This document shows positions 1 to 54,900 of a stretch of 64,000 nt of DNA, piece by piece. The stretch comes from Cordylochernes scorpioides (lineage: Eukaryota; Arthropoda; Arachnida; Pseudoscorpiones; Chernetidae): NCBI GenBank assembly GCA_030710605.1, contig CP092874.1:75296133-75360132 (forward strand), read 5' to 3'. Below the pieces are notes generated by a model. That model searched no databases and had not been told where the DNA came from. It saw only the letters and a program-made list of their open reading frames with translations. A program made the position numbers and the translations under genes. The first letter of the stretch is position 1, and each line of letters opens with the position of its first letter.

Positions 1-2246
1 GTCTCTGGAATGTGGGAGTCCAACGTCCATTCTCCCCCGCCCTCCTTCTTCTTCCATGAAAGAGAAAATGGCGGCCCCTTCCCCTGCCTCCCTCGTTGTC
101 TCAACTATTCCTTTAAGAGATTTCTGGGATAACCACACCTTCTGGCGATTTAGCAACCCACTGAGGACGCTGGTAGCTATTTCATAGAGGAAAATTATAG
201 CGACGGATCTCTATAATTTCTACAGATCAACTGTAAATAGATTCATACACAAAGGATATAGCGCGGAAAATTTAGGACAGATATGTAAAGAGATTCCTCA
301 TTAAACTACGATAATATAAGACCAAATTAACATTTTTATAGGAGTATAATATGTTGAAATCAATATTTCAAATTAGATATCATGAAGTACCAGGTTCAGT
401 TTTTATTGGTAGAAAGATCTGATTATACATGCAGGTATCCTTTAATCCCGATTTTATAATAAAGATTCAACAAAAATGCGTGGCCGCCTCTACAGACCAA
501 CGGACTCGGGTCCGTGACACGCCCATTTTTGTGTCACGTTCTCTGAGATCATCCAACGACTTTGGGGGATCTCAGATAAAGATGAACATGTTAATATTAG
601 AAACTAAAATCCTGAATATATAAGACCAAATTAACAATTTCTATAGAAGTATAATATGTTGAAATCAATATTTCAAAAATTAGATATCAGGGAGTACCAG
701 GTTCAGATTCTAGTAGTCATAAAATCTGATTAAACATGCAGGTATCCTTTAATCCTGATTTTATAACAAAGATTCAGCAAAATGCGATGGAATGTGGTTA
801 CTATCTGGATATATGGAAAGGACTCTATTTGTAAAGATTATACTAAAATCCAACAAAATATGCTATAAAGCAAGCAAGACTATACTATATACTATTGACA
901 ATGACATTTGTAATATTTTTTTTTTTAATAAAAGGTTTACAATAAAATCATAAAGAGAACAATCTAGGAGTATAAGGCGACATGGGTCTTATTAGATTTT
1001 AATCAAGAGATGGTATAATGATAAATATGACGAAATAGCTCACTGAAACACAGACAGGAGAACTGGCTCCTAGGGCAGGCACGTTCGGCGGTGTATGTTG
1101 GCCAATAATTATTAGAAGACTTGATCATTAATAACATTCCCTCCAAATAGATAAGAATCATACTATATTTCGTTTTAAACAGTGAAAGAAGGACAGATTC
1201 TTCACATTAGTATACAAATATTACTAAAAACCTGACAGAGAGATACCCTCAAGGCAGCCCTAATAAAGTCGTATTTTGCAACTGTTGCTGTGTCAACATA
1301 TCACAGCAAATACATAGTACACAACTCTATTCCATCAGAGTCGGTAGTCTATATTCAATACAATTTGTGGTAATAAGGTGTGGGGGTAGTACCATAGAGC
1401 AACAGAATGAAAATGTATGAGGGGAAACAAAACTCTCCATATAAATTGTATACTAGATATTTATTCAGATTATGCGAGATTTTGGGGACATTTCATACTA
1501 GTGAGACATGCTATTTACATAATGATCTAGGTAGAGGTGACTTAAGGTTACAAATTCTTCTTTATATAAGGGAAAACATGGATCTCCATCTATCCTAACG
1601 GGACAAGATACGAGAATACTAACATTCCTTCTTGTATTTAAAGCCCTTTAGGGCCCATTCAAAATCTATATGGATTAGTTTCTACTTGAAAATTAAAAGG
1701 GGGAGCTAGACCATAATGGCGGGGCTTACCTTCTCTCGAAAGCGGCGGCAAGGTCTGGTCTCCCCTGCGTCTCAGGCCCGACTGGCTGAATCTCTCCTGT
1801 CACTGAGCGGCTCCGTCTATATCTATTTAGCCAAGAAAAAGTCCTTTTATCCTTGCCTCTCTTCATTTTCATTGGTTGCTCACGCCAAAGTTTCTATTGG
1901 CTGGCATTTTCATTCGTCGAAAGCCAACACGCACGTGATTAAGACCACGCCTCCAATTTACCGTGTTGCCGCGCGAAAAAAAAATTGTATATTGAAAACA
2001 AATTAATTCCTTTAGTAAATTGAATAATATATATATCCCGAGTATATATATAAAAAAAAAAGGTTATTGATTTAATATTTATATGACAAATTGTTTCCTT
2101 TGGTCACCTCTAACTAAAATGAGGGGATATATATGTGCATATGGTACAGCAGCTCCCAGCACGGATGTCTCTGGATGTCACCCGTGTCTTCCTCCCCATC
2201 AGGCGTCAGCTTTCGGCATGGAAGTCTGGTGTCCTCAAGTGTCTAG
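1..2246 (-). repeat. LTR-A family copy, reverse orientation, cut by the window edge
   Basis: This stretch is repeated in inverted orientation at 46.4-48.8 kb: the two match, with divergence, through the block around 320-400, the block around 1716-2006 and the block around 2080-2246. The right-hand copy looks like a complete long LTR followed by a primer-binding site, so this is read as the same LTR on the minus strand, its 3' end lying outside the window. On the minus strand it carries a TATA-like GATAAAAG (complement at about 1846-1853). The short ORF at 1716-2006 is antisense to this promoter and has a shifted counterpart in the other copy; I treat it as non-coding. An internal direct repeat of about 80 bp recurs at 318-400 and 623-705. 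Confidence 0.6.
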
Positions 2247-2449
2247 TTTTGTTTGTACATGTGCTCTTTGTACATCCTTCGTTTCGGCCCCTCCGCAGCG
2301 GGTTTTAGGTCTTTAGAGCTTCGTCGGCCATCGTTGGGAGTTCTCCACCTAGGCAACAAACACTTCGGCGAGACACTGCGTATATATTTATATGATGTAA
2401 ATGTTTACATCTTTGTTGGGTCTTGTTTGGTGGAAAATCTGACCCAACA
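2247..2449 (-). repeat. LTR-B fragment, reverse orientation
   Basis: Reverse complement of the first 200 bases or so of the LTR-B unit at 44.0 kb, including its TGTTGGG start (here ending in CCCAACA at 2441-2449) and the internal repeat of TGGGTC next to a TGATGTAAATGTTTACATC palindrome. It interrupts LTR-A homology exactly at 2246 and abuts gypsy RT sequence on the other side. Confidence 0.65.
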
Positions 2450-3106
2450 GAAGCTATGTCCTCTATTGTTCTTAGTGGGTAGTGTCTTCTTAGCAGGATC
2501 TTGTTTAAATCTGATGGATCAATACAAATTCTATATTTCCCGCCTTGCTTCACTACCACCATGTGGCTGTGTTGGCTCTTCCATTCTTTTTATCACCTTA
2601 CTTTTCTCCATTAAATCTAGCTGTTTCTTGACCTCATCCTTTATTTTTATGGGTATGCTCCTGGGTGTTTTTATTTCCAACTTGTGGTCCCCTTTTGTGA
2701 ATTCTGCTCTGTATTCAAAATTCTTTATGCAACCATCTTCTTTGAACTACTGGTGAAACTCTTGTTCTACTGTTTTTATTTCATTTATTCTCTTGAGTAG
2801 TCCTAGCATAAAGCAAGATTCACTGCCCAGTATTGGTGTGATCCCTGTTTTAGTGTCAATGAACTTAATGTCTGCCTTGATGTTGTTTATTATGCATGAG
2901 GCAATAATTTCTCCTTCCACCTTAATTCTGTGGCCTGAGAATGATTTTAAACTTTTCACTGAATTTCTGTTAAGTTTCGAATTTATTTTCTTGAAAATGT
3001 TACAAAGCAAGACTTTGCACTGAGCTCCAGTGTCCAATTTTATTTTGAAAAGTTCGGTGTTGTTTATTTGGATGTTTTCCATCAGTTCACTAGTGAGACT
3101 AGTGAA
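2450..3106 (-). pseudogene. Ty3/gypsy pol fragment: protease to RT start (gypsy-D type)
   Basis: Minus-strand remnant of a gypsy polyprotein. From the right, the aspartic protease motif LDTGAQ is visible (about 3040), then the linker to the reverse transcriptase fingers, ending with the RT start GGKYRICIDPSDLNK (about 2520-2545) and HYPLRTIED. The reading frame breaks near 2565, just before the RT motif. The RT palm (including the catalytic aspartates), RNase H and integrase are missing: the sequence stops at an LTR-B fragment at 2449. Probably the same family as the pol remnant at 42.3-44.0 kb, since that copy has the complementary domains, but this is inference. Confidence 0.75.
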
Positions 3107-3275
3107 ACAGCTAGACTTAATGGAGAAAAGTAAGGTGATAAAAAGAAATGGAAGAACCAACACAGCCACATGGTGGTAGTGAAGCAAGGCGGGAAATATA
3201 GAATTTGTATTGATCCATCAGATTTAAACAAGATCCTGTTAAGAAGACACTACCCACTAAGAACAATAGAGAACA
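3107..3275 (+). pseudogene. Inverted duplicate of the gypsy RT start
   Basis: Plus-strand copy of the same RT N-terminal segment found on the minus strand at about 2450-2640, with only a few differences. The two copies form an inverted repeat with arms of about 170 bp and a loop of about 460 bp. The protease-linker sequence on the minus strand runs up to the edge of this inverted piece. Confidence 0.75.
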
Positions 3276-13450: not shown

Positions 13451-14747
13451 CGAGGTGTGTTCAAAAAGTATCGCGAAATTTGAATTTTCGCGGGTTACAT
13501 ATATTCAAATTTCGATCTTTTTGTGGCTTTATGTTGGTACTCATGTCTCTCACTTATGCCGACAAGCTCGGCCATTTTGAATTTTCACTTAATTGTTGAC
13601 AGCTGCTTTGCTTGCCGGTGTTTTGGATGGTCTTCGATTTTTACCTATTAAAAAAATGGATCAAAGAACCTGTATCAAATTTTGTGTGAAAAACGAAATT
13701 AAGTGCTCGGATGCATTCCGAATGTTGACTGTGGCATACGGAGAAGCTACCTTGGACCGAAGCAACGTTTATCGGTGGTACAAAATGTTCTCAGAAGGCC
13801 GAGAAGATGTGAACGACGAAGAGCGTGCCGGACGCCCGAGCACTTCAACAACAGACGAAAAAATTAATGAAGTGGAGAAAATGATATTGGCCAATCGTCG
13901 AATCACCGTTAGCGAAGTTGCTGAGGACCTAAACATATCGATTGGCTCGTGCCATTCGATTTTTATCAATGATTTGGGCATGAGACGGGTCGCCGCGAAA
14001 TTCGTACCAAAATTGCTCAATTGCGACCAAAAACAGCATCGCATGAACATTGCTAATGAGGTGTTGGATTCTGTCCGCGATGACCCAAATTTGCTCCAGA
14101 GGGTCATAACTGGTGACGAAGCGTGGGTTTATGGTTATGACGTGAAAACCAAAGCTCAATCATCTCAATGGAAGCTGCCGCACGAACCAAGACCGAAAAA
14201 AGCGCGCCAAGTTCGGTCGAATGTGAAAGTTTTGCTGACAGTTTACTTCGATTGCAGGGACGTGGTGCATCATGGGTTCTTGCCACAGGGTAGAACGGTC
14301 AATAAGGAATATTACCTGCAAGTTATGCGCAATTTACGCGAAGCAATCCGCCAGAAACGCCCGGATTTGTGGAAGAACAAAAATTGGCTTTTGCACCACG
14401 GCTTGTGCGCGACTTTTTGGCCAAAAACAACACACTAATGATGCCGCAGCCACCGTATTCCCCAGATCTGGCCCCCTGTGACTTTTTCTTGTTCCCTAAA
14501 CTGAAGAGGCCCATGAAAGGACGACGGTACGCTACGCTTGACGAGATATAGACGGCATCGAAGGAGGAGCTGAAAAAGATTTTTAAAAATGATTTTTTTA
14601 AGTGCTTCGAAGATTGGAAAAACCGTTGGCACAAGTGTATAATATCTCATGGGGATAACTTTGAAGGGGACAAAATAGGTATTCATGAATAAATAAATAA
14701 ATTTTGAAAAACACAAAAGTCGCGATACTTTTTGAACACACCTCGTA
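13449..14747 (+). mobile_element. Mariner element, copy 1, inserted in gypsy-C integrase
   Basis: Terminal inverted repeats of about 30 bp (CGAGGTGTGTTCAAAAAGTA from 13451, its complement ending at 14745) are bounded by TA on both sides (13449-13450 and 14746-14747). The length between TAs is 1295 bp, normal for mariner. Removing it restores the integrase reading frame of gypsy-C across the site. Confidence 0.95.
13656..14438 (+). pseudogene. Mariner transposase, copy 1, inactivated by a 25-bp deletion
   Basis: Cut-and-paste transposase of the DD34D mariner family. The true start is the ATG at 13656 (MDQRTCIKF); codons upstream only extend the open frame. The helix-turn-helix DNA-binding half (residues about 1-110) is intact. 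The first catalytic Asp lies in TGDEAWVYGYD and the second in VYFDCRD. A 25-bp deletion after 14393, relative to copy 2, removes the third Asp motif (HHDDAPAHTS in copy 2) and shifts the frame to a stop at 14436-14438. A TAG also interrupts the old downstream frame at about 14549. The enzyme cannot be active. Confidence 0.95.
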
Positions 14748-15108: not shown

Positions 15109-15134
15109 AAATTATATATATATATATATATATA
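15109..15134. repeat. TA microsatellite, left side of the Naiad-B insertion
   Basis: About 12 TA units next to the left end of the palindrome. The matching run at 21184-21212 lies on the other side, after which the gypsy-C pol frame continues. Confidence 0.85.
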
Positions 15135-16358
15135 ATAATAAATAGTTATTTAATTTTATAGTCCAGTTTTGTATTAAGATTATCTTCACTATTATGATCA
15201 TTTAAATTCAAATTATAAAATTTGTATAATGTTATTAATTTGTAGATAGAGAGAGAAAAAAAAAATCCTTTACTTCTACTATATCCTCAAGTTAATTATA
15301 TATTTATAATTAATAACAATAAAAATTAACAACGTAACGTCTATTACATCGGCTTTTACACGTCATTTAGACATACTCTAATCCTATATATAGAATAATC
15401 GAAGAGAGAATATATATAATAGTTAGAAAAAAGAGAGAAAGACAGAACCATGCACTTTTAATCAAACTAATAATAAGGAAAAAAAAAAGAAGGTAGATAA
15501 GATTGTTAGTATATATATATATATTTTTATGATTTTATATTTTATCCTTTTTTTTTTTTTAAAGATTTTTAAAGGTTTTTTTTATTTTATAATATGATTA
15601 TAAATAGTTGTATTTAGTAATATATCTATAGTATGAATTAACATTTGTTATAAGTTTGGATATTATGTTTTGAAACCCTAATGGTAGACCAGACATACAC
15701 AAAAAACTTTAAATTGAAATAAATTGGAAAAAGAGATCTGCTGGACCGGGGATCTTCAGATAAAAGTCCAACGACATTTCAACCCCTTCTTTATTATGTC
15801 ATAGATCTCTTTTAGACCGGATTTTATGTGTTAATATTAAGTTGTTTCAGTGAAATATTTAAATGAACATATATAACAGATACAAGTGTTAACAAATTCA
15901 AACTGTAAACCTACCTCAACCGCGGCGTCCTCCATTGTGAATATCTATTTCTGGCTGACACATGTTGCGGGAGGGGAATGTCCCCCCACATTTCAAATTT
16001 AGACCATTTATTCAGAATTTTTTTGAACAACAAGAAAATTAAAGAAGAAAGGAAAAATAGTTAAAGGAAGAAAGCTGAATTTCATAATCTTTACAGCTAG
16101 TTATATCAAAATAACTGATTCAACACTTATTCATCTTTTAATATTCCTTTAAAAAGGCAAATTATAATAGTTTAATAAAGCTATTAATTGTGCAAATTCA
16201 CTTTTATTTAACTTCCATTTTCCTCCCCAGAAATTGGAGATTAAACAAAATGAACTATATACTATAACACTTTAAAAATCTTGTGAAAAAATCTTTTTTC
16301 AGTTATTTAATCAAAGTTTAATTAACTGTTAAAGATTATAAATTTGTATTAGTTAATA

Positions 16359-18092
16359 TTAAGAGAAATTATAGAAAGTTGATTTCATAAATGGATATTT
16401 CCATTTATTTTTTTTTAAATATTTTATAATTGATATACTGTTGAAATATTTTACTTGTTTGATACTAAATTTGTTTTTAATAAATTCCATGTTTAAATTT
16501 TTAACATCTTCTATGAAATTATCTAATATATTATTTATTCTATAAAATCTTAGAAACTGACCATAATATATACCTTTACAGCAATTTAATGATATATTAG
16601 AATTCATATTACAGTATTTTATAATATTGAAATTATAATTACTCTTTTTATTATAAACTCTAACAGCACTATTTGTAAGGTCTATATTTAAGTCTAAAAA
16701 GTTAACTTTTTTGTTTCTATAAATTTTTTCATTGTTCTTAAGTTTCAAGTATTTAGGATAAATTTCAGGTATTAATTTTTTAAACTGTGGATTATTAAAT
16801 ATTATTATGTCATCTACATATCGGAATATTTGCCAATTAATATTATTTTGTAGAAAGTATTCTCTTTCGTACCAGAACAATATTAGATTTGCTAATAACG
16901 GACTAGAAGAAGTTCCCATGGGAACGCCTTCTGATTGAATATATATTTTATTTTTAAATTCTATATAGTTAAAATTTAAAAATGTTTCCAGTAGAGTTTT
17001 TGCTGTTTTAAGATCTAATTTAAATGTTTTATATCTGTTATGAATTATTTTAATGTAGAAAGTTTTGTCATTAATGAATTCATTAAATAAATTGGTTATT
17101 TTATTATTTAGATCTCTTAAATTTATTTTAGAATATAGGTCCTCAAAGTCAAATGTGTGTACTGTTTCAATGTTTGTCCAATTGTTCATTAAATAATTAA
17201 TGATTTTTTTATTTGAGTCGATAAATTTATAATTATATTTATTAGTTAATTTATTTATAATAAATTGTAGTGTTGAAGCTAATTGTATATCAATATTTTT
17301 TATGACTGAATTTATACCAGATGTGATTGTTCTGAAAGAAATAGTTTTTTTGTGTAGTTTAGGAATTATATAGAACTTTGGTATGTTTGGATTTTTGTGG
17401 TTATTATAAATTTTTAGTGAATTTTCAACATTTTTGATGTCTTTTTTGATTTTTGTGCCTGTAGTTCTAGCAAAAGTGTATTTATGATTATTATCAATTT
17501 CCTTTTTTAGTATATCGTGGTATAGATTTTTACAAATTAAAGATAAATTATTGGTACATTTATCTATAGGAGTGATAATATAGTCCTTCTGTAAATTAAT
17601 TATATTTTCTTTAAAAGAAGGAATGTCTGAATTGGGTTTTGTGTATTTAAGTGTATTATTATAATAATTTATAATTTCCTTTTTAATATTATGTTTCCAT
17701 TCCAGAAAAGTAAATTCTGGAATACTGTATTTTATACTAGTTTTATTTATGAAAATATCTATATCTTTTAATATAGATTTAATTGTATTATTATAATTGT
17801 GTTTAATTTGAGGTATATATTTATACCCTTTATTTAAAATTTCTTGATATTCTGGATTTAAAAAAGAAAAATTGCTAGTTAATATATGACCTGAGAACTT
17901 ATATTTATCAATATAGTTGTTGCAATTACATTTAATTTTTTTAAAATTTGCCAAATTATTAATAAATTGGTTATAATTGCAAACTAAATTACCTATATTT
18001 TTATTGTATCTCCAGATTGTTTTGAAATTTAAATTTTTTATAGGGAAAAGATTATTGATGATTTGGTTATTAAAAATATCATTAAATTTAAT
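16359..18092 (-). CDS. Naiad-B PLE reverse transcriptase, left arm, 5'-truncated
   Basis: Reverse transcriptase of a Penelope-like element. The open frame is 588 codons if read from an ATG lying in the opposite arm (18125); the element's own sequence starts at the centre. Visible in that numbering: a CxC motif (CNC, 66-68) followed by SGHILTSNFSFL; a TPIDKC variant of the DKG motif (about 185-190); KFYIIPKLHK and SFRTITSG (250-270); motif A DFEDLYS with catalytic Asp 326; motif B QSEGVPMGTSSSP (397-409); motif C YVDD (436-439) with two catalytic Asp; FLDLNI; and the PLE-type GQFLRFYRI block. CxC and an N-terminal nuclease (seen in Naiad-A) point to the Naiad clade. The C-terminus aligns with Naiad-A to the stop codon, so this arm keeps the native end. 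Composition is extremely AT-rich. Without the nuclease it is not autonomous. Confidence 0.85.
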   Translation of the reverse strand: MKFNDIFNNQIINNLFPIKNLNFKTIWRYNKNIGNLVCNYNQFINNLANFKKIKCNCNNYIDKYKFSGHILTSNFSFLNPEYQEILNKGYKYIPQIKHNYNNTIKSILKDIDIFINKTSIKYSIPEFTFLEWKHNIKKEIINYYNNTLKYTKPNSDIPSFKENIINLQKDYIITPIDKCTNNLSLICKNLYHDILKKEIDNNHKYTFARTTGTKIKKDIKNVENSLKIYNNHKNPNIPKFYIIPKLHKKTISFRTITSGINSVIKNIDIQLASTLQFIINKLTNKYNYKFIDSNKKIINYLMNNWTNIETVHTFDFEDLYSKINLRDLNNKITNLFNEFINDKTFYIKIIHNRYKTFKLDLKTAKTLLETFLNFNYIEFKNKIYIQSEGVPMGTSSSPLLANLILFWYEREYFLQNNINWQIFRYVDDIIIFNNPQFKKLIPEIYPKYLKLKNNEKIYRNKKVNFLDLNIDLTNSAVRVYNKKSNYNFNIIKYCNMNSNISLNCCKGIYYGQFLRFYRINNILDNFIEDVKNLNMEFIKNKFSIKQVKYFNSISIIKYLKKNKWKYPFMKSTFYNFS

Positions 18093-18095
18093 ATG

Positions 18096-19784
18096 ATTAA
18101 ATTTAATGATATTTTTAATAACCAAATCATCAATAATCTTTTCCCTATAAAAAATTTAAATTTCAAAACAATCTGGAGATACAATAAAAATATAGGTAAT
18201 TTAGTTTGCAATTATAACCAATTTATTAATAATTTGGCAAATTTTAAAAAAATTAAATGTAATTGCAACAACTATATTGATAAATATAAGTTCTCAGGTC
18301 ATATATTAACTAGCAATTTTTCTTTTTTAAATCCAGAATATCAAGAAATTTTAAATAAAGGGTATAAATATATACCTCAAATTAAACACAATTATAATAA
18401 TACAATTAAATCTATATTAAAAGATATAGATATTTTCATAAATAAAACTAGTATAAAATACAGTATTCCAGAATTTACTTTTCTGGAATGGAAACATAAT
18501 ATTAAAAAGGAAATTATAAATTATTATAATAATACACTTAAATACACAAAACCCAATTCAGACATTCCTTCTTTTAAAGAAAATATAATTAATTTACAGA
18601 AGGACTATATTATCACTCCTATAGATAAATGTACCAATAATTTATCTTTAATTTGTAAAAATCTATACCACGATATACTAAAAAAGGAAATTGATAATAA
18701 TCATAAATACACTTTTGCTAGAACTACAGTCACAAAAATCAAAAAAGACATCAAAAATGTTGAAAATTCACTAAAAATTTATAATAACCACAAAAATCCA
18801 AACATACCAAAGTTCTATATAATTCCTAAACTACACAAAAAAACTATTTCTTTCAGAACAATCACATCTGGTATAAATTCAGTCATAAAAAATATTGATA
18901 TACAATTAGCTTCAACACTACAATTTATTATAAATAAATTAACTAATAAATATAATTATAAATTTATCGACTCAAATAAAAAAATCATTAATTATTTAAT
19001 GAACAATTGGACAAACATTGAAACAGTACACACATTTGACTTTGAGGACCTATATTCTAAAATAAATTTAAGAGATCTAAATAATAAAATAACCAATTTA
19101 TTTAATGAATTCATTAATGACAAAACTTTCTACATTAAAATAATTCATAACAGATATAAAACATTTAAATTAGATCTTAAAACAGCAAAAACTCTACTGG
19201 AAACATTTTTAAATTTTAACTATATAGAATTTAAAAATAAAATATATATTCAATCAGAAGGCGTTCCCATGGGAACTTCTTCTAGTCCGTTATTAGCAAA
19301 TCTAATATTGTTCTGGTACGAAAGAGAATACTTTCTACAAAATAATATTAATTGGCAAATATTCCGATATGTAGATGACATAATAATATTTAATAATCCA
19401 CAGTTTAAAAAATTAATACCTGAAATTTATCCTAAATACTTGAAACTTAAGAACAATGAAAAAATTTATAGAAACAAAAAAGTTAACTTTTTAGACTTAA
19501 ATATAGACCTTACAAATAGTGCTGTTAGAGTTTATAATAAAAAGAGTAATTATAATTTCAATATTATAAAATACTGTAATATGAATTCTAATATATCATT
19601 AAATTGCTGTAAAGGTATATATTATGGTCAGTTTCTAAGATTTTATAGAATAAATAATATATTAGATAATTTCATAGAAGATGTTAAAAATTTAAACATG
19701 GAATTTATTAAAAACAAATTTAGTATCAAACAAGTAAAATATTTCAACAGTATATCAATTATAAAATATTTAAAAAAAAAATAA
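18096..19784 (+). CDS. Naiad-B PLE reverse transcriptase, right arm, 5'-truncated
   Basis: Mirror copy of the RT in the left arm, with the same CxC, DKC, motif A-C and thumb segments. Two differences matter. One codon in the TTGTKIKKD segment reads Val instead of Gly, and one extra A in the A-run near 19775 shifts the frame so that it ends after YLKKK, about 15 residues short of the native end. The frame also reads through the palindrome centre, where the three unpaired bases are ATG (18093-18095) and supply an in-frame Met. Confidence 0.85.
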   Translation: MKFNDIFNNQIINNLFPIKNLNFKTIWRYNKNIGNLVCNYNQFINNLANFKKIKCNCNNYIDKYKFSGHILTSNFSFLNPEYQEILNKGYKYIPQIKHNYNNTIKSILKDIDIFINKTSIKYSIPEFTFLEWKHNIKKEIINYYNNTLKYTKPNSDIPSFKENIINLQKDYIITPIDKCTNNLSLICKNLYHDILKKEIDNNHKYTFARTTVTKIKKDIKNVENSLKIYNNHKNPNIPKFYIIPKLHKKTISFRTITSGINSVIKNIDIQLASTLQFIINKLTNKYNYKFIDSNKKIINYLMNNWTNIETVHTFDFEDLYSKINLRDLNNKITNLFNEFINDKTFYIKIIHNRYKTFKLDLKTAKTLLETFLNFNYIEFKNKIYIQSEGVPMGTSSSPLLANLILFWYEREYFLQNNINWQIFRYVDDIIIFNNPQFKKLIPEIYPKYLKLKNNEKIYRNKKVNFLDLNIDLTNSAVRVYNKKSNYNFNIIKYCNMNSNISLNCCKGIYYGQFLRFYRINNILDNFIEDVKNLNMEFIKNKFSIKQVKYFNSISIIKYLKKK

Positions 19785-20376
19785 ATGGAAATATCCATTT
19801 ATGAAATCAACTTTCTATAATTTCTCTTAATATTAACTAATACAAATTTATAATCTTTAACAGTTAATTAAACTTTGATTAAATAACTGAAAAAAGATTT
19901 TTTCACAAGATTTTTAAAGTGTTATAGTATATAGTTCATTTTGTTTAATCTCCAATTTCTGGGGAGGAAAATGGAAGTTAAATAAAAGTGAATTTGCACA
20001 ATTAATAGCTTTATTAAACTATTATAATTTGCCTTTTTAAAGGAATATTAAAAGATGAATAAGTGTTGAATCAGTTATTTTGATATAACTAGCTGTAAAG
20101 ATTATGAAATTCAGCTTTCTTCCTTTAACTATTTTTCCTTTCTTCTTTAATTTTCTTGTTGTTCAAAAAAAATTCTGAATAAATGGTCTAAATTTGAAAT
20201 GTGGGGGGACATTCCCCTCCCGCAACATGTGTCAGCCAGAAATAGATATTCACAATGGAGGACGCCGCGGTTGAGGTAGGTTTACAGTTTGAATTTGTTA
20301 ACACTTGTATCTGTTATATATGTTCATTTAAATATTTCACTGAAACAACTTAATATTAACACATAAAATCCGGTCT

Positions 20377-20461
20377 AAAAGAGATCTATGACATAATAAA
20401 GAAGGGGTTGAAATGTCGTTGGACTTTTATCTGAAGATCCCCGGTCCAGCAGATCTCTTTT
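20377..20461 (+). other. Conserved hairpin near the 3' end of Naiad PLEs
   Basis: AAAAGAGATCT (20377-20387) pairs with AGATCTCTTTT (20451-20461). Inside lie a GGGG/CCCC pairing, a GAAA and a CTGAAGA motif. The diverged Naiad-A copy at 30608-30689 keeps the layout with changed bases: AGAAATCT against AGATTTTTCT outside, AGGG against CCCT inside. The left arm holds the mirror copy at about 15727-15811. Function unknown. Confidence 0.55.
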
Positions 20462-21057
20462 TCCAATTTATTTCAATTTAAAGTTTTTTGTGTATGTCTG
20501 GTCTACCATTAGGGTTTCAAAACATAATATCCAAACTTATAACAAATGTTAATTCATACTATAGATATATTACTAAATACAACTATTTATAATCATATTA
20601 TAAAATAAAAAAAACCTTTAAAAATCTTAAAAAAAAAAAAAAGGATAAAATATAAAATCATAAAAATATATATATATATACTAACAATCTTATCTACCTT
20701 CTTTTTTTTTCCTTATTATTAGTTTGATTAAAAGTGCATGGTTCTGTCTTTCTCTCTTTTTTCTAACTATTATATATATTCTCTCTTCGATTATTCTATA
20801 TATAGGATTAGAGTATGTCTAAATGACGTGTAAAAGCCGATGTAATAGACGTTACGTTGTTAATTTTTATTGTTATTAATTATAAATATATAATTAACTT
20901 GAGGATATAGTAGAAGTAAAGGATTTTTTTTTCTCTCTCTATCTACAAATTAATAACATTATACAAATTTTATAATTTGAATTTAAATGATCATAATAGT
21001 GAAGATAATCTTAATACAAAACTGGACTATAAAATTAAATAACTATTTATTATTATA

Positions 21058-21180
21058 ATTAATTTAGATTTAGCTTGCTAATCTAATCAAATCTAATTGA
21101 TATAAGTTATCATTATTATCATTTTGCTCCTTAAGTTTTAAAATTAGAATCACTGTTATAATTTTGTTATATAGTTTCTA

Positions 21181-21183
<3 letters not shown>
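21058..21183 (+). mobile_element. Short PLE 5'/pseudo-LTR segment after the palindrome
   Basis: Begins AATTTAGATTTAGCTTGC, as in the Naiad-A 5' region at 11108, and lies between the end of the right arm and the TA microsatellite. It fits the tandem or pseudo-LTR arrangement known for PLE insertions. Confidence 0.45.

Positions 21184-21212
<29 letters not shown>
21184..21212. repeat. TA microsatellite, right side of the Naiad-B insertion
   Basis: About 14 TA units, the right half of the microsatellite split by the Naiad-B insertion. Confidence 0.85.
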
Positions 21213-27555: not shown

Positions 27556-27763
27556 TGTTGTAAGATTTAGGTACTTACAGCTTGTAGGAAGGCATGAGGA
27601 CGTTGAGGATTATATGATAATAATCTTTATTATCCATTTAGCAAGAAAAACAAAGTTATGGTAGCGAACAGTTATTGAAGTATAGAGAAGAAGGTAAACA
27701 AACAGTTGTGATGATGATAGGTCCAGTGTGGCGCTAGCTGTCGTAGCATTCAGTTATCCAACA
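27556..27763 (-). repeat. Copia-1 3' LTR
   Basis: 208 bp, TGTTG at one end and CCAACA at the other. The polyprotein stop codon (TAA, 27754-27756) lies inside it. Confidence 0.95.
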
Positions 27764-30285
27764 AATCCCCGGCATGAATGTGGAGACATCACGAGGTTGT
27801 AGCGTAACTTCTCAAATGTCGGCCTTGGTAGCGGCTTGGTCAGAATGTCCCGAGCTTCAGTTTTGTACAGCATGTAGTCATTTCTTATGGGAGGTATTCC
27901 CTTTGTTGGTCTCGTGAATCTTCTTTGTGTGACCACTTGTGTTCCTGTGCTGGTACCGGGTTGAAGGTACTTCTCGGTTTCTGAGTCCTCAAGGTTTTCG
28001 GATTGTGTTCCTGGTTCCTGACTTTCCTCTGCATTACCAATATGATTGGAGGAAGTTAGATCTGTACTTAGTACTTGTGGTGAAGTTGTTTTTGTGGAAG
28101 CGTGGTGAAACCCATTTTCTTTTTCTATAAATTTTACGGATCTGCTGATTGTGATGTTGTCTGTATCGTGCAGGATTCTGTATCCTTTGCTTCGATCATC
28201 GTATCCAAGAAAGATCCCTTCGATAACTTTGCTATCCAACTTGTTTCTTTTTATCTTGGGAATATAGGCGAAGGCTTTACATCCGAATCTTTTTATATGC
28301 TTCAGACTGGGCTTCCTGTTGGTCCATAGTTCAAATGGAGTCTTGTCTGTAGCTTTCGAGGGTATTCGGTTGTGTAGGTAATTAGCTGTGGTAACCGCTT
28401 CCGCCCATAGAGACTGTGGGAGTCCTGAGTCAAACAGCATGCATCTTGTCATCTCCATTAGTGATCGATTTTTCCTTTCTGCTACTCCGTTCTGGGCTGG
28501 TGAGTAGGGGACTGTTAGCTGATGTTTGATTCCGCTTTGGTTCAGGAAATCTTCGACTTGTCGGTTTACGTACTCACGACCGTTGTCTGTCCGTATGGTT
28601 TGGATATTTTTTCCAAATTCCGTGTGTGCTGAGATGACGTAGTCTTTTATTTTTTCATAGGCTTCGTCTTTTCCTTTCAGGAGGTAGGTCTTCGTGTATC
28701 TGCTGTAGTCATCAGTGAAGGTGATGAAGTATCTCTTACCGCTGAGAGAGTTAGTTGGTAATGGACCGCAGATATCACTGTGGACAAGTTGAAGCGTTTC
28801 AGTTGCTCTGTACTCTGTCTTCTTTGGAAATGGGGTTTCGGTGAGTTTTCCTTGAATGCATTGAATGCAGTCTGTGCTGTGCGAACAGTTATTTAGACTT
28901 AGTCCTCTTGCTAGGTTCTCATTTCGAATCTTCTTAATTGATTCTATATTTCTGTGTCCTAGTCTGTCGTGCCAGAGCATGAGGCAATTTTTGTTCTTGC
29001 AGTGGTTTTGTTTTGCAACATTTGCTTTGAATGTGCGAGTTTGGGGGTTGTCATCCAGGTGGAGTCGGTACATTCCATTGTCAAGTATACCGTTCGCGAG
29101 GACTGTGTTGTCTCTTTCGATGGTACACCAATCTCTGTTGAACGTCACTTTACATCCGTTGGAGGTGGCCGCACTCACTGACAGAAGGTTGTCTGTTAGT
29201 TCCGGGATGTAGAGAACTTTTGTGAGAAGTAAGGTGTCAGTCTTTCCTTGGGGTGTGATGACTTTGATTTCTCCTTGTCCTATCCCTTTGACCTGCAGCT
29301 TATTGCCATTAGCAACCACAACATGTTGTGTTTGTTCTCTGTTAAGTTCAGTGAAGAAGCTTTCATCGTATGCCATATGAGATGTGGCTCCAGAGTCGAC
29401 GAACCAGTTGTGTACACTTGCTTCTCGTTGAGTGCAATTGAGAGCTTTTGGGTTAGGTCCTCTTGTTGTTCTCTGATTTGTTGATTGTTCTTGGGTGACA
29501 CTCGACTGATTTGTGTACTTTGGTACGTTTCCTCTTCTGAAGTTTTCATATTTGTACTCTTTGTTGCTGTTGTTTCGCTTTTGATAGTGCCAACATTCTT
29601 CTTTGGATTGGTTTGGTTTGTGGCAGAAAGAACAGAATTTCTTCTCTTTTTCTCTTCTTTGGCTTGAAGCTCCGTGGAGGCTTTTTAAGGCTTTTGATGC
29701 GGTGCTTTCGTCTTTCGAGCTTTCTACTCTGCGTGTGTGTTCATCAAGGAGTTTGTTCTTGGTAAATTCAAGCGTTAGCTCGTCATCGGGCCTTGATTCC
29801 AACATCGTGATGAGATTGGAGTAGCTCTTTGGAAGCGAGCAAAGCAGTATAGCCGTGATGTGAGAGTCCTTTAGTGTTTCGCCAATGGTTCGCAGTTTGT
29901 CAATTAGTTCCATCATGGTAGTGATGTGCTGTTGCATGTCTTTGTCTTCTTCGAGTTTTAAGCTGTATAGCTTCCTTAGCAAATAAATTTTTCCTGAGAG
30001 TGTTTTTCTTTCATAGATATTTTTAAGAGTGTCCCAGGTAGCTTTGGCTGTTAGTAGGTTTTTGACATGCACTATTTGTGAGTCGGCGATGCTTAGATTA
30101 ATGATAGCTCTAGCTTTTGAGTCTTTCTTTTTCCATTCGATTTTAGGTTCATCTGGAATATTTTCGGTGACAACTTCCCAAAGATCTTCCTTTTGCAAGA
30201 GCATTTCAATTTTGAAAGACCATAGTGAGTAGTTATAGCCGTCGAGCTTATTTAGGGTTACATCGTGGCTCGGGAGTGACGCCAT
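27754..30285 (-). CDS. Copia-1 gag-protease-integrase polyprotein with in-frame loss of RT-RNase H
   Basis: 843 residues starting MASLPSHDVTLNKLDGYNYS, 73 bases after the 5' LTR. Gag (1-210) has the copia-type NYSLWSFKIEMLL and the KATWDTLKNIY blocks. A CCHC knuckle (CSFCHKPNQSKEECWHY) sits at about 218-234 and the protease motif WFVDSGATSH at about 294-303. Integrase follows: HDRLGHRN with CIQCIQGK (zinc), then DDE residues in HSDICGPL, RTDNGREYVN and NGVAERKNRS, and the GIFLGYDDRSKGYRI block. After GIPPIRNDYMLYKTEA the frame jumps at about residue 811 to RDILTKPLPRPTFEKLR, normally the end of RNase H. Everything between is gone, with frame kept. The product could package and integrate but not reverse transcribe. 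Confidence 0.93.
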   Translation of the reverse strand: MASLPSHDVTLNKLDGYNYSLWSFKIEMLLQKEDLWEVVTENIPDEPKIEWKKKDSKARAIINLSIADSQIVHVKNLLTAKATWDTLKNIYERKTLSGKIYLLRKLYSLKLEEDKDMQQHITTMMELIDKLRTIGETLKDSHITAILLCSLPKSYSNLITMLESRPDDELTLEFTKNKLLDEHTRRVESSKDESTASKALKSLHGASSQRREKEKKFCSFCHKPNQSKEECWHYQKRNNSNKEYKYENFRRGNVPKYTNQSSVTQEQSTNQRTTRGPNPKALNCTQREASVHNWFVDSGATSHMAYDESFFTELNREQTQHVVVANGNKLQVKGIGQGEIKVITPQGKTDTLLLTKVLYIPELTDNLLSVSAATSNGCKVTFNRDWCTIERDNTVLANGILDNGMYRLHLDDNPQTRTFKANVAKQNHCKNKNCLMLWHDRLGHRNIESIKKIRNENLARGLSLNNCSHSTDCIQCIQGKLTETPFPKKTEYRATETLQLVHSDICGPLPTNSLSGKRYFITFTDDYSRYTKTYLLKGKDEAYEKIKDYVISAHTEFGKNIQTIRTDNGREYVNRQVEDFLNQSGIKHQLTVPYSPAQNGVAERKNRSLMEMTRCMLFDSGLPQSLWAEAVTTANYLHNRIPSKATDKTPFELWTNRKPSLKHIKRFGCKAFAYIPKIKRNKLDSKVIEGIFLGYDDRSKGYRILHDTDNITISRSVKFIEKENGFHHASTKTTSPQVLSTDLTSSNHIGNAEESQEPGTQSENLEDSETEKYLQPGTSTGTQVVTQRRFTRPTKGIPPIRNDYMLYKTEARDILTKPLPRPTFEKLRYNLVMSPHSCRGFVG

Positions 30286-30906: not shown

Positions 30907-31157
30907 GCGGTTCAATTTAAAACTTGAGAAAAAGCGAAAATATTTTATCAGAAGTTTGATACGTTTATTCTAATCGGTAAACAAAGATCTCTTCTGCATC
31001 AAGGTATGTAAATTTTGAAATATGTTTCAATAGAATTTGAATTATATTGATAAAAGAAAGTTTTAAATATAAGGATTGAAAAAAAAAACATTTTTGAATT
31101 ATAAACTACCTTTAAACTATATTTTTTAATTTTAAAACGTTGAAAAACAAGGCTAAA

Positions 31158-32054
31158 ATGGATTGCAATTTTTCGCCAACGACAAAAATTGAACCTTTAA
31201 CAGGAACAAATTATCCGATTTGGGCTTTAAAAGTCGGAGCACTTTTACGTGGAAAGAAATTATTTAAATGCGTAATTTCGAATCCCGAGCCTGATATAAA
31301 AGATGAAGTCGCTTGGCAAATATGGAGTGAAAAGAATGACGAAGCCTTTGGAATTATAGTTACAACTCTATCAGATGAACAAGCAGGAATGTTTCTAGAT
31401 GAAACTAAAGCAAAGAAAGCATGGGATGAATTAAAGAAAATCTACACGGGCAACCTAGAAGATAAGATCATTGATATTGGACTTGAACTTAAGAATATCA
31501 AGATGAAAAATAATGAATCCATAAATGAATATATGGCTAGAGCCAAAAATATTGCTTCTCAAAGTTCTTCACTCGGACACCAAATATCTCAAAGAGAACT
31601 AGCGTTTCATATTGTGCGAGGTATCCATCCAAGATTGGAAAAGATCGCTGTTGTACTGAGAACTAGAAGAGACTTAACTCTTGATGAAATTCGGCAGTCA
31701 CTTAGAGAGGAAGAGAATCGAATGAATTCTAAGATGAATGGGAGTCATTCTGATGAAAATGAACAGGCTTACAGAAGTAAAGACAGAAGAAATCACTATC
31801 AACAGAATCGACAAAAAGAGTGTTTTGTTTGCCATAAAATAGGACATTTAGCTAAAGATTGCTGGTTCAAAAATAAGCGAACTCAAGAACAACATGGGAG
31901 AAGAAATGCAAATTCAAATACGAACTATAGCAAACAAAATTTCAGAAATAATGCGAATACCGTCTCAAGCAAGCCTGCGGAGCAAACTTTCAATACCAGC
32001 ACAGATCGAGTTTTTGAAAACTCCTCAAATAATTATAGTCAGATACAAACCTGA
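31158..32054 (+). pseudogene. Copia-2 gag
   Basis: Starts at the ATG at 31158 (MDCNFSPTTKIEPLTGTNYP). The copia capsid blocks NYPIWALKVGALL and KAWDELKKIYTG are clear, followed by an Arg/Asn-rich region and one CCHC knuckle CFVCHKIGHLAKDC (about 31821-31862). The frame ends at TGA 32052-32054, immediately before the protease CLDSGCTTH, where the family normally has Trp. A TGG to TGA change therefore separates gag from pol. Confidence 0.9.
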
Positions 32055-32603
32055 TGTCTTGACTCAGGATGTACTACGCACTTATCTCCACACTTGGACT
32101 GGATGGAAAATGTAATGCCTTATGAAAGTGAGATAAATTTGGCAGAAGAAGGTAAAGTTACACATGCTACAGCTAAAGGTGATATCAAGGTTTCTACTTG
32201 TACCGAAAACGGAATTGAGAATGTTCAAATTAAAGGAGTCCTGCATGTACCTAACTTAAGGTCTAATCTTTTATCAATATACGAATTAACTAACAAAGGA
32301 AATACTGTAATTTTCAATAGAGATGGAGCAAATATTTACAATGAACAGGATGATTTAATTGCAGAGGCTCAAATCCAGGATAGGATGTATGTAATGGAAA
32401 CATGGTCCAGAGATGAATACTCGGAAAAGACGGAGAATGTCATGACCACAAAAGATGATTTCTCAAATGACAATATCAGCTTGTGGCATAGAAGACTGAA
32501 TCATTTGAACGAAGCGTACATGAAAGAGATAATTCAACGGAATGTGGTATCGGGGGTTAATGTTAAATTTAAGAACTTGCCAGAATGTGTGAAGCTTGTA
32601 TAA
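32055..32603 (+). pseudogene. Copia-2 protease and integrase zinc domain
   Basis: Same frame as gag after the TGA. CLDSGCTTHLSP carries the catalytic Asp of the aspartic protease, and HVPNLRSNLLS is the conserved protease C-terminal block. LWHRRLNHLNEAYMKE holds the two His of the integrase zinc domain. The frame runs off at 32603 because two extra bases (TGTG for TG near 32587) separate it from the next block, which begins with the Cys pair CEACIMGK. Confidence 0.88.
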
Positions 32604-34142
32604 TGGGGAAATTGACTCGACAACCTTACCATCCCGTTACCACCAACTGTACAACCAAACCCCTTGAATTAGTGCATATGGATTTGTGTGGTCCAATGCC
32701 ATACCAATCTCTAGGTGGATCAAAATACTTTTTTGTTCTGGTTGATGACTTCAGCCGAAGAACCTTTATCTACTTTCTGAAAAACAAAGATGAAACTTTG
32801 GGGAAGTTTGAAGAATTTAAGGCAAGAGTGGAAAATGAGCTAAACCTGAAAATAAAGGATGTGCGAACTGATAATGGCACAGAGTTTACTAATCACAGAT
32901 TCAAGAATTTTTTAATTAAAAATGGAATACACCACCAACTCTCCACCACCTACTCGCCACAAAGTAACGGAGTTGCGGAGAGAGTAAACCGAAACCTAAT
33001 TGAAACAGCAAGGACATTATTGTTTGATTCAGCATTACCCATGGCTTTCTGGGCGGAGGCAGTCGCTACTGCATCATATGTCAAAAACTGTACTCCACAT
33101 AGGTCAATCAAGCTTGATACACCAATGGAGAAATGGAAAGGAAGAAAACCCTCCATTCGACATTTCAGAATATTCGGTTGTTTGGCGTTTTGGCCCATTA
33201 CACAACAACATAGAAGTAAATTTATGCCTAAAAGTCGAAAAGGTATTTTTGTAGGCTATTCTCTGAAAAGAAAGGCTTATCGAGTGTATGACATAATCAC
33301 TAAGAAAATAGAAGAAGTAAGATCAGTAAAATTTGTCGAAAATGAGAAAGGAATTGATTATGCAAAAAATCTTCAAGAAGACACAAATTACGACCATTTT
33401 TCTTATAAAAAGGAAGATGATATTGAAATCGACCATCGGACGCGTCCAGAAACCTCAGAACTAAATGAAGAAATGATTCCCACGCTAGACGAACCTAACG
33501 AGGAAAGAATTGTAAGGTCAGGTCGCAAAAAGGGAGATACACAAAAAGTTTTAGAGCAAAAACACAGAGCAAAACTGAGAGAAGTAGAAATGAAATTGCT
33601 TGAACAAGGCGTTCGACGTTCGCAAAGAATAAAAGAAAGAAATAACGTGAATTTTATATTAGAACCAGAAGAACGTATTCCCGAAAATTATGAGGAGGCG
33701 ATTAACTGCGAGAATAAATATGAATGGCTCGAAGCAATGAAAGAAGAACTTTACTCTATTGACAAGCATAAGGTATGGACTCTCGTTCAAAGAGAAAAGA
33801 ATATGAAGATCATAAACAGCAAATGGATCTTTAGCATAAAGAGTACGCCTAGTGAAGGTGTTTATAGAAGAAAAGCTAGATTAGTTGCTATTGGTTGTAA
33901 TAAAAAATATGGCGTAGAATATGAGGAATCATTTTCTCCAGTGATCAGAAAAGAAAGTCTTCGTGCAATTGTAGCCCTAGCAGGTCAGTTGAATTTGGTT
34001 ATAACATCATATGATGTGAAGACCGCCTACCTTTACGGAGAATTGAAGGAAACTATTTTTATGAAACAGCCGGAAGGATTTGTTGAAAAAGGTGAAGAAG
34101 ACAAAGTTTGCAAATTATTAAAAGTATATATGGACTTCCACA
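32585..34142 (+). pseudogene. Copia-2 integrase core and first half of RT
   Basis: CEACIMGKLTRQP gives the Cys pair of the zinc domain. The DDE residues are in VHMDLCGPMP, RTDNGTEFTN and NGVAERVNR. After a charged linker with RRSQRIKERN, the RT begins at YEEAINCENKYEWLEAMKEE and includes NSKWIFSIK, YEESFSPVIRK and the catalytic motif A Asp in SYDVKTAYLYGEL. A frameshift near 34122 throws the conserved YGLPQSGHCWNK block out of frame. Confidence 0.9.
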
Positions 34143-35204
34143 ATCGGGACATTGTTGGAATAAAAAGATCACAACGAGATACTGATACAACTGGGAATGG
34201 AAAGATCGCGATATAATCCATGTGTGTACACTTTTAGAAAAGGAAAGGAATATGGAATATTGGGTTTATGCGTGGATGATCTAATAATAGCCGGAACGGA
34301 TAAAACCTTTAATGAAAAACTAGCATCAGAGATAGGAAGATTTGTTGCTTTAAAAGAAAAAGGGGAGAATGAACCTTTCATTGGTATAGAGATAAAGAAA
34401 ACAGAATACGGTTTTGATCCATCACAAGCCCATTATATCGATAAAATCTTGAAGAAATTTGCACTCGAAGAATGTAACATTGTACAAACTCCGGGAGATC
34501 GAGACCAAAGTTTTGATGAATGTCAAGACTTCAAATCAGTAGACAAGACATTATATCAAGAGATGATCGGATCCCTGATGTATTTGGCAACCGGAACTCG
34601 TCCAGATATTTCTTTTAATGTGAGCAATTTATCCCGATTTTGCAATGATGCAAGAGAAGTACATTTAACAAGAGTTAAGATAATATATAGATACCTGAAG
34701 GGCACCAGAGATAAAATGTTAAGATACAAGCCATCAGAAAATAGCATTCTTGTCAGCACAGATGCAAGCTGGTGTTCAACAAGTGACGCAAAGTCCTATT
34801 CCGGATACACAGTTAAACTGGGAAACAACCTGATCAGTTGGAGAAGCAAGAAACAAAGTTTGGTGGCTCTGTCTACATGCGAAGCCGAACTGATTTCGAT
34901 ATGCGAAGGGATGTGCGAAGTAAAATGGATTAAAGGACTTTTAGAAGAACTATGTAAGGATGCGAACTTTCCTACAACGCTTAAAACAGATAGTCAATCT
35001 GCTATCAAGTGGATTAAATCTGAAAAAATAACTTCCCGGACAAAACATATAAACCGAAAATTGTATTTTATAAAAGATGCTGTGGAAGAAGGAACAATCG
35101 ACCTTGAATTTGTTAGGAGTGACGAAATGGAAGCGGACCTATTAACAAAGAGTCTTCCCAAGGAGAAACTTAAAAACTGTATAAACTCTCTCGGACTTGT
35201 TTGA
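34143..35204 (+). pseudogene. Copia-2 second half of RT and RNase H
   Basis: After a second frame change near 34180 the sequence resumes at MERSRYNPCVYTF. LCVDDLIIAG supplies the two motif C Asp, and GSLMYLATGTRPDISFNV is the copia-specific block. RNase H follows with STDASWC, LSTCEAE and TDSQSA, its acidic residues, and ends in DLLTKSLPKEKLKN. The stop is at 35202-35204, just before the polypurine tract. Confidence 0.9.
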
Positions 35205-35466: not shown

Positions 35467-36520
35467 TGAATGTTGACTGTGGCATACGGAGAAGCTACCT
35501 TGGACCGAAGCAACGTTTATCGGTGGTACAAAATGTTCTCAGAAGGCCGAGAAGATGTGAACGACGAAGAGCGTGCCGGACGCCCGAGCACTTCAACAAC
35601 AGACGAAAAAATTAATGAAGTGGAGAAAATGATATTGGCCAATCGTCGAATCACAGTTAGAGAAGTTGCTGAGGACCTAAACATATAGATTGGTTCGTGC
35701 CATTCGATTTTTATCAATGATTTGGGCATGAGACGGGTCGTCGCGAAATTCGTACCAAAATTGCTCAATTGCGACCAAAAACAGCATCGCATGAACATTG
35801 CTAATGAGATGTTGGACTCTGTCCGCGACGACCCAAATTTGCTCCAGAGGGTCATACCTGGTGACGAAGCGTGGGTTTATGGTTATTACGTGGAAACCAA
35901 AGCTCAATCATCTCAATGGAAGCTGCCGCACGAACCAAGACCGAAAAAAGCGCGCCAAGTTCGGTCGAATGTGAAGGTTTTGCTGACAGTTTTCTTCGAT
36001 TGCAGGGGCGTGGTGCATCATGAGTTCTTGTCACAGGGTAGAACGGTCAATAAGGAATATTCCCTGCAAGTTATGCGCAATTTGCGCGAAGCAATCCGCC
36101 AGAAACGCCCGGATGTGTGGAAGAACAAAAATTGGCTTTTGCACCACGATGACGCCCCTGCTCACACATCGTTGCTTGTGCGCGACTTTTTGGCCAAAAA
36201 CAACACACTAATGATGCCGCAGCCACCGTATTCCCCAGATCTGGCCCCCTGTGACTTTTACTTGTTCCCTAAACTGAAGAGGCCCATGAAAGGACGACGT
36301 TACGCTACGCTTGACGAGATAAAGACGGCATCGAAGGAGGAGCTGAAAAATATTTTTAAAAATGATTTTTTGAAGTGCTTCGAAGATTGAAAAAAACCGT
36401 TGGCACAAGTGTATAATATCTCATGGGGATTACTTTGAAGGGGACAAAATAGGTATTCATGAATAAATAAATAATTTTTGAAAAAACACAAAAGTCGCGA
36501 TGCCTTTTGAACACACCTCG
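35467..36520 (+). pseudogene. Mariner copy 2, 5'-truncated, transposase with a stop codon
   Basis: Very similar to copy 1 from GAATGTTGACTGTGG onward but lacking the 5' terminal repeat and about the first 22 codons. The 3' terminal repeat ends at 36520 and is followed by TA. A TAG at about 35685 (after DLNI) splits the transposase. Downstream the frame (35722-36390) is open and retains all three catalytic motifs: GDEAWVYGYY (where copy 1 has GYD), FFDCRG and HHDDAPAHTS, the one deleted in copy 1. It ends at KCFED. Confidence 0.93.
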
Positions 36521-49675: not shown

Positions 49676-49896
49676 TGTTGGCTTCCGTAGGCGTTTCTTA
49701 CTGGGAAAAAGAAAGAGAGGACCCAATGAAATAATTTAGTAGCGTTTATTAAAACAAAATCATAATAATGAACAACACATATAACAGAGAGTACCGTCGT
49801 CTTCCGGGTATTCCTTCTACTGGGGAGCTCGGATTCTATATTCTGTGCGTTTATAATCTGTTTATCTGTGGCTCTCTGGTCGGGATGGCGCCTACA
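49676..49896 (-). repeat. Gypsy-F 3' LTR
   Basis: 221 bp. On the minus strand it begins TGTAGGCGCC, and its first bases supply the last codon and stop of the polyprotein. Confidence 0.95.
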
Positions 49897-54751: not shown

Positions 54752-54900
54752 GTTTTTCAAAAGGAAAAATAAACAAAGCAAAAATTTTAAAATAAACAAA
54801 TAAAACTGACTAAACCAGATACGTACTGTTTCAATTATTTCTTTAAACGAAATCAACTTTTCTTTAGAAATTTTGAGACAATACTTTTTTTTTCTTTTTA

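Follow-up and report, generated by a model that had tools for sequence, protein, structure and literature searches.

The mode of integration of Penelope-like retroelements is an open question; their inverted inserts have hitherto been ascribed to self-priming, and their tail has been called optional. Among natural inserts, the closest described are those of the rotifer Adineta vaga, for which the accessible portions of PMC3846280 report head-to-head inverted repeats with palindromes at the junction, a tail on one repeat and target duplications of 8-10 bp, in a small number of elements whose repeats measure about 200 bp, and interpret them as self-priming on an antisense template. The closest biochemistry is that of the purified Poseidon enzyme of Anolis carolinensis, which, according to the accessible part of PMC11167929, cuts and extends both target strands, uses two start sites bounding the tail, and acts on AT-rich targets. 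Here we describe a palindrome made of two Naiad-type Penelope-like copies in the pseudoscorpion Cordylochernes scorpioides (assembly GCA_030710605.1), located in a stretch of 64,000 nucleotides of contig CP092874.1 (positions 75,296,133 to 75,360,132), which is called the window below. As far as the accessible text on Adineta vaga goes, the inserts described here are alike in their head-to-head inverted repeats, palindromic junction, tail on one repeat and target duplication, and differ in having arms of up to 3 kb and more and in combining two different 3' ends in 29 of 31 resolved cases. The window palindrome is a large and clean example of an already known type of Penelope insert; head-to-head inserts, junction palindromes and a tail on one repeat have been published, and the regular pairing of start sites is the point deserving follow-up.

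The palindrome is composed of a left arm at 15131-18092 on the minus strand and a right arm at 18096-21057 on the plus strand, each a 5'-truncated copy of 2,962 bp, separated by 3 bp (ATG, 18093-18095). When the arms are aligned globally, six differences appear, namely two substitutions (18730/17458 and 20629/15561, the latter inside a poly-A run) and four 1-nt homopolymer insertions or deletions, and the similarity is far above chance expectation. An earlier description made from the letters of the window (the sequence-only reading) had claimed a near-spacerless palindrome of near-identical 2.96-kb arms with ATG unpaired, which agrees with these values. It had also taken the outer 3' ends of both arms to be intact, and each arm does reach a native 3' end, though the two ends are different ones. 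Its view of the insert as symmetric has to be given up, since homology to other copies extends 131 bp past 21057 on the right side only (to about 21188). The palindrome is asymmetric by these 131 bp: the left copy has a tail-minus 3' end with its outer limit at 15131, and the right copy has a tail-plus 3' end, the tail lying at 21058-21188 (plus strand) with its last bases blending into a TA run. Both outer flanks are (TA)n runs (15112-15134 and 21182-21211), where a target duplication is unreadable. An open reading frame (ORF) with a reverse transcriptase (RT) domain and without an endonuclease part occupies 18093-19784 on the plus strand of the right arm, and the final codons of its counterpart in the left arm (16359-18125, minus strand) are shifted by a 1-nt homopolymer difference.

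At the centre (18086-18102) lies a native 7-bp inverted repeat, ATTTAAT / ATTAAAT, around a 3-nt loop; the other copies have ATTTAAT-CAT-ATTAAAT at this position. The loop CAT in its native orientation is retained by the left arm and not by the right arm. The spacer ATG is accordingly a property of the left arm, because its minus-strand reading CAT matches the other copies upstream of the truncation. The sequence-only reading had proposed a genome search for the same centre; in the genome searched (2.62 Gb, 24 contigs) the exact 37-bp centre was found at one place only. A site with one mismatch at C4:86523996 was rejected as a second palindrome copy, as it fits a deletion between direct repeats. 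Short inverted repeats of this kind (stem of at least 7, loop of at most 8) are not rare: the repeat unit has 21 of them, where 20 shuffled versions average 11.8.

The genome search with the right arm gave at least 44 matches, comprising the two arms of the window, 39 longer copies and 3 short fragments (40 of 3,678 candidates were scored), and 28 of the longer copies (L003-L030) were examined with about 1.5 kb of flank on each side. These copies are arranged in tandem with a unit length near 4,255 bp, and the palindrome centre falls inside this unit, within an ORF that extends upstream in them. A GIY-YIG domain was detected upstream of RT in L007 (E 2.8e-7) in an overlapping frame, the endonuclease being at 849-1199 and the RT at 1168-3177 of this copy; the CxC motif between the two domains is CNC, identified by eye in the ORF rather than scored by a model. 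Comparison with these copies places the truncation point of the window arms between the GIY-YIG domain and the RT, and neither arm has the endonuclease part. Regarding the earlier claim that both arms are truncated at one RT codon, the shared truncation is therefore confirmed and its position within the RT is not. A TA-rich repeat adjoins 21 of 23 readable 3' ends as judged by eye (those of L011 and L016 not directly), a count from which the tail-plus ends sampled below were left out because TA was part of their search pattern. No Rfam family, the hammerhead ribozymes included, matched L003, L007 and L015 at an E-value of 1, and the Rfam scan of the window gave microRNA models only, at the palindrome centre and far below their cut-offs. 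Search of a protein collection with the RT yielded three distant relatives only, and both tandem and inverted inserts were observed for the element. Naiads reportedly have a GIY-YIG domain N-terminal to RT with a short CxC linker, a microsatellite bias, no canonical hammerhead ribozyme, and tandem as well as inverted inserts. The present element shares with them the GIY-YIG domain upstream of RT, the CxC motif between, tandem units, inverted inserts, microsatellite targets and the lack of a hammerhead match, and so it fits a Naiad-type Penelope-like retroelement, as the sequence-only reading had called this head-to-head pair, the assignment being by such reported features and not by a phylogenetic tree.

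Copies terminate at unit position 2962 (tail-minus) or 131 nt further at 3093 (tail-plus), mostly followed by a TA run. Among the 28 copies, 16 ends are tail-minus, 7 are tail-plus and 5 continue into the next tandem unit. An end was classed as tail-minus if it lay at the first point or if no more than 15 nt of TA-like match followed that point, and as tail-plus if it lay at or near the second point (L011 ends 9 nt short). Two inserts, L077 (C1:113774016-113775916) and L010, have their 5' boundary exactly at the tail-minus start site, and L077 consists of a 135-nt tail piece only.

Head-to-head inserts are common for this element. An inverted partner is present in 12 of the 28 copies (L004, L005, L006, L012, L014, L016, L017, L018, L019, L026, L028, and L030); for 12 others the stretches examined either ended before the 5' boundary or left it ambiguous. 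Both outer ends were resolved in ten of these dimers (L004 and L019 were left out) and in a palindrome at L022, and the pairing is plus/minus in ten cases (L005, L006, L012, L014, L016, L018, L026, L028, L030, and L022), where the partner end of L012 is taken from its place in the list of tail-plus matches and not from sequence. The L022 palindrome (L022:4474-4750, contig C2) is a 0.3-kb plus/minus structure truncated at 2886/2886, centred on a native 8-bp palindrome and situated beside an older copy.

For a second sample, a pattern of the tail-plus end followed by TA (at most 2 mismatches) was found at 3,147 places; from the first 100 matches listed, all on contig C1 and with no mismatch, 40 were hand-picked along the list and 1.9-2.6 kb was examined at each, a design that favours short inserts. 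Twenty of these inserts extend past the stretch examined. The other boundary is visible in the remaining 20, and 16 of them are head-to-head dimers, all 16 with a tail-minus partner. The structure is hence not the striking exception that the sequence-only reading had seen in it. Two outward-facing tail-plus pairs among the matches listed were examined deliberately (L041 and L042). The second of them (C1:178321686/178323260) was rejected as a plus/plus dimer; it represents two plus/minus dimers lying side by side within one (TA)n region (C1:178321450-178323550).

Taking all resolved dimers including that of the window, 29 are plus/minus and 2 are concordant (L041 and L017). When main copies are tabulated against partners, with the window, L022, L041 and L042 omitted, tail-minus main copies have 5 plus and 1 minus partners and tail-plus main copies have 0 plus and 20 minus partners (Fisher P 9e-5; 0.048 if restricted to the ten whole-arm dimers). 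The outer ends fit the two putative RT start sites, tail-minus and tail-plus. Target sequence of at least 17 bp is directly duplicated around dimer L016, where the duplication is readable, and a duplication is suggested in L005 and L026. At L045 and L072, the host flanks on the two sides resemble reverse complements, as if the target (TA)n had been the centre of an inverted repeat, and at the junction of L017 with L087 and L090 (C8) an additional short piece of Naiad sequence is attached through a TA stretch.

Truncation points of paired arms, taken as BLAST limits that are each uncertain by the junction microhomology, lie at most 35 nt apart in 11 of the 29 plus/minus dimers, while 1.34 is expected from shuffling of partners; none of 200,000 shuffles reached 11 such near-equal pairs. 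The sampled dimers alone (n = 16) give 8 within 35 nt against 1.57 expected. Apart from the window, the two points are no more than 7 nt apart in three dimers and coincide in another. Near-equal stopping is frequent and not general: among the 12 dimers that were neither sampled nor near-equal like that of the window, arms often differ by at least 1 kb in length, and differences on the kilobase scale are found in L005, L014, L016, L018, L026, L030, L012, L006, and L042a. The longer arm is tail-minus in 21 of the 29 dimers, tail-plus in 7, and neither in 1; among the 12 dimers with points at most 65 nt apart, the corresponding numbers are 8, 3, and 1. Junction microhomology, transcribed by hand, averages 4.4 nt at 19 junctions without extra bases, compared with 0.97 for random joins (eight junctions with extra bases were excluded, as were L006 and L058, whose long overlaps were not trusted).

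In five of the 16 sampled dimers the truncation falls inside a folded region at 20377-20461 (plus strand; mirrored in the left arm) or on its border; this region is predicted to form a three-way junction and is not the truncation point of the window palindrome. Its fold has -27 kcal/mol (z -1.96, with 6 of 200 shuffles equally stable), and the region matched no Rfam family. A known ribozyme was rejected as the cause of this hotspot on these two grounds, the lack of an Rfam match and a fold that is only moderately unusual. Excluding the five hotspot dimers, 6 of 24 pairs still lie within 35 nt against 0.84 expected (P 5e-5).

In the window, 11 substitutions common to both arms are absent from all 28 other copies, one of them adjoining a 1-nt deletion. 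The arms differ from each other at 2 of 2,835 unmasked sites, while the nearest other copy among those compared differs by 0.78%. Five shared substitutions lie in the ORF (2 amino-acid-changing and 3 silent), too few for separating variation of the source from decay. In nine dimers with sufficient overlap, the arms are 0-0.8% apart, compared with a mean of 1.2-2.9% from other loci. Four of the nine (window, L014, L041, and L055) have no equally close locus elsewhere, and from 1 to 24 other loci are equally close in the other five, the 24 being for an overlap of 133 nt.

We think it probable that the palindrome represents one insertion, in which synthesis was primed by both target strands, each from a start site of its own and perhaps on a single RNA, and its products were joined through microhomology. 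The Naiad enzyme would cut a (TA)n microsatellite in a staggered fashion, and both exposed target 3' ends would prime reverse transcription of the element RNA, the left arm at the tail-minus start site and the right arm at the tail-plus site, 131 nt further 3'. Both complementary DNAs (cDNAs) would halt at nearly one template position and would be joined at the native 7-bp inverted repeat, leaving a palindrome with a 3-nt loop. Since the tail-plus arm stands at the opposite end of the insert, the other target strand would have been its primer, and since it has a tail that the loop-owning arm does not have, it would need its own start on the RNA. A direct target duplication such as that around L016 would be expected because two 3' overhangs would be extended. 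The likeliest form has two enzymes on a single RNA with the tail-minus one ahead, and the correlated truncation suggests such a convoy. Priming from both strands, the single RNA and the joining reaction are what we infer from the two native 3' ends, their plus/minus pairing, the correlated truncation, the variants shared by arms and the junction microhomology, which can be read in the assembled sequence. Target-primed synthesis from two nicks, one of the mechanisms named in the sequence-only reading, gains support here as a candidate.

Several points weigh against two-strand priming on one RNA. No inverted partner is found at L008, L010, L020 and the main copy of L022, which have host or TA sequence at the 5' boundary, nor in four of the 20 sampled inserts with a visible boundary (L048, L062, L071, and L077). 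L041 is a true plus/plus dimer, and L017 is minus/minus with a complex junction. The main weakness of the pairing argument is the base rate of tail-minus ends: if their genome-wide share were 0.8, the chance of 16 out of 16 tail-minus partners would be about 0.03. The tail-plus arm is the longer one in three of the 12 dimers with truncation points at most 65 nt apart. Shared variants fit a single RNA as well as two RNAs from the same locus and do not separate these cases. In the accessible part of PMC11167929, moreover, the Poseidon enzyme shows no start-site difference between strands, and its start sites are not homologous to the cut DNA, whereas both ends match TA here.

The rival that survives best is itself a form of two-strand priming, so that its probability overlaps with that given above: each enzyme subunit would use its own RNA, both from one locus. 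Its predictions for tails and shared variants are identical, and common stop sites could equalise the lengths, as suggested by the five sampled dimers stopping at one folded region; the length correlation persists without those five, and we consider this form rather unlikely. More doubtful is a mixed process, in which both target strands act as primers, the tail-minus cDNA folds back on itself, and the copy so made is linked to a short tail-plus cDNA. It would account for the tails, the position of the loop and the usual excess length of the tail-minus arm, but only 1-3 bp of pairing, which makes a poor primer, is available at the near-equal junctions of L046, L061 and L064, and the three near-equal dimers with a longer tail-plus arm speak against it.

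Simple snap-back, in which a single cDNA folds at the 7-bp inverted repeat and copies itself, draws on the native repeat with its 3-nt loop at the centre and on the frequency of near-equal truncation, and self-priming is what the accessible portions of PMC3846280 propose for head-to-head Penelope inserts. It predicts one outer end for both arms, however, and the ends differ in 29 of the 31 resolved dimers. It fails also because the loop-carrying arm, which would be the original, is tail-minus, and its copy could not gain a tail. The hairpin replication of one copy offered by the sequence-only reading likewise finds no support, and we regard snap-back alone as improbable. Palindromic duplication at the DNA level of a single copy already inserted appears still less probable. 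Short inverted repeats can seed palindromes, and the private variants common to the arms would be accounted for, but the two different native 3' ends, the different flanks and the identical architecture at many other sites are not what it predicts.

An assembly or read artefact is unlikely: palindromes are a known hazard and our judgement is from the assembly alone, but the arms differ in their flanks, in their 3' ends and by two substitutions, and 28 other resolved plus/minus dimers are present elsewhere in the assembly. Two independent insertions meeting head-to-head by coincidence would agree with the repeated entry of the family into (TA)n beside older copies (L022, L042, and L052) and can practically be dismissed in view of the 3-nt spacing, the 11 shared private substitutions and the target duplication around the whole of L016.

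In twin priming of LINE-1, an inverted segment arises when the other 3' end of the target is also used as a primer on the RNA of the element; this additional start is internal, the inverted segment is an upstream part of the RNA, and the 3' end is missing from one of the two segments. The present inserts are similar in the inverted segment and in the priming by a second target 3' end that we propose, and are unlike it in having a 3' end at each outer limit and in the overlap of their segments. Twin priming of the LINE type was rejected for the window palindrome, where each segment extends to a native 3' end and the overlap of the two measures 2,962 nt.

Pairing of start sites ties the behaviour of one purified enzyme, which acts on both strands and uses two start sites, to a common genomic product. 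The tail would mark the start site used at each end, and in nearly all resolved dimers the two ends are of different kinds. By the accessible text of PMC11167929, Poseidon is alike in its two start sites with the tail between and in its AT-rich targets, and it differs in its C-terminal endonuclease and in a tail of 30-40 bp, compared with 131 here; no joined products of the enzyme are described in that text. A statement of the plus/minus pairing rule was not found in the literature searched, which included the accessible parts of PMC3846280, PMC11167929 and PMC12910113 and lay outside the Naiad and early Penelope papers. We tentatively suggest, as a possibility somewhat short of an even chance, that Naiads normally integrate by paired synthesis on one RNA, with a convoy of two RTs in which the tail-minus one leads; both would halt at the stopping point of the leader, and the cDNAs would be joined there. 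If this is true, the optional tail is not a random choice but shows which of the target strands was the trailing primer.

Other mobile elements are present in the window. Mariner-type transposase ORFs at 13593-14438 and 35722-36390 are parts of the same or a similar element, and Copia-type retrotransposons lie in opposite orientations at 27754-30285 (minus strand) and 31140-35204 (plus strand). A long terminal repeat retrotransposon polyprotein at 49892-54856 (minus strand) has an open frame of 1,654 amino acids with protease, RT, RNase H, and integrase domains.

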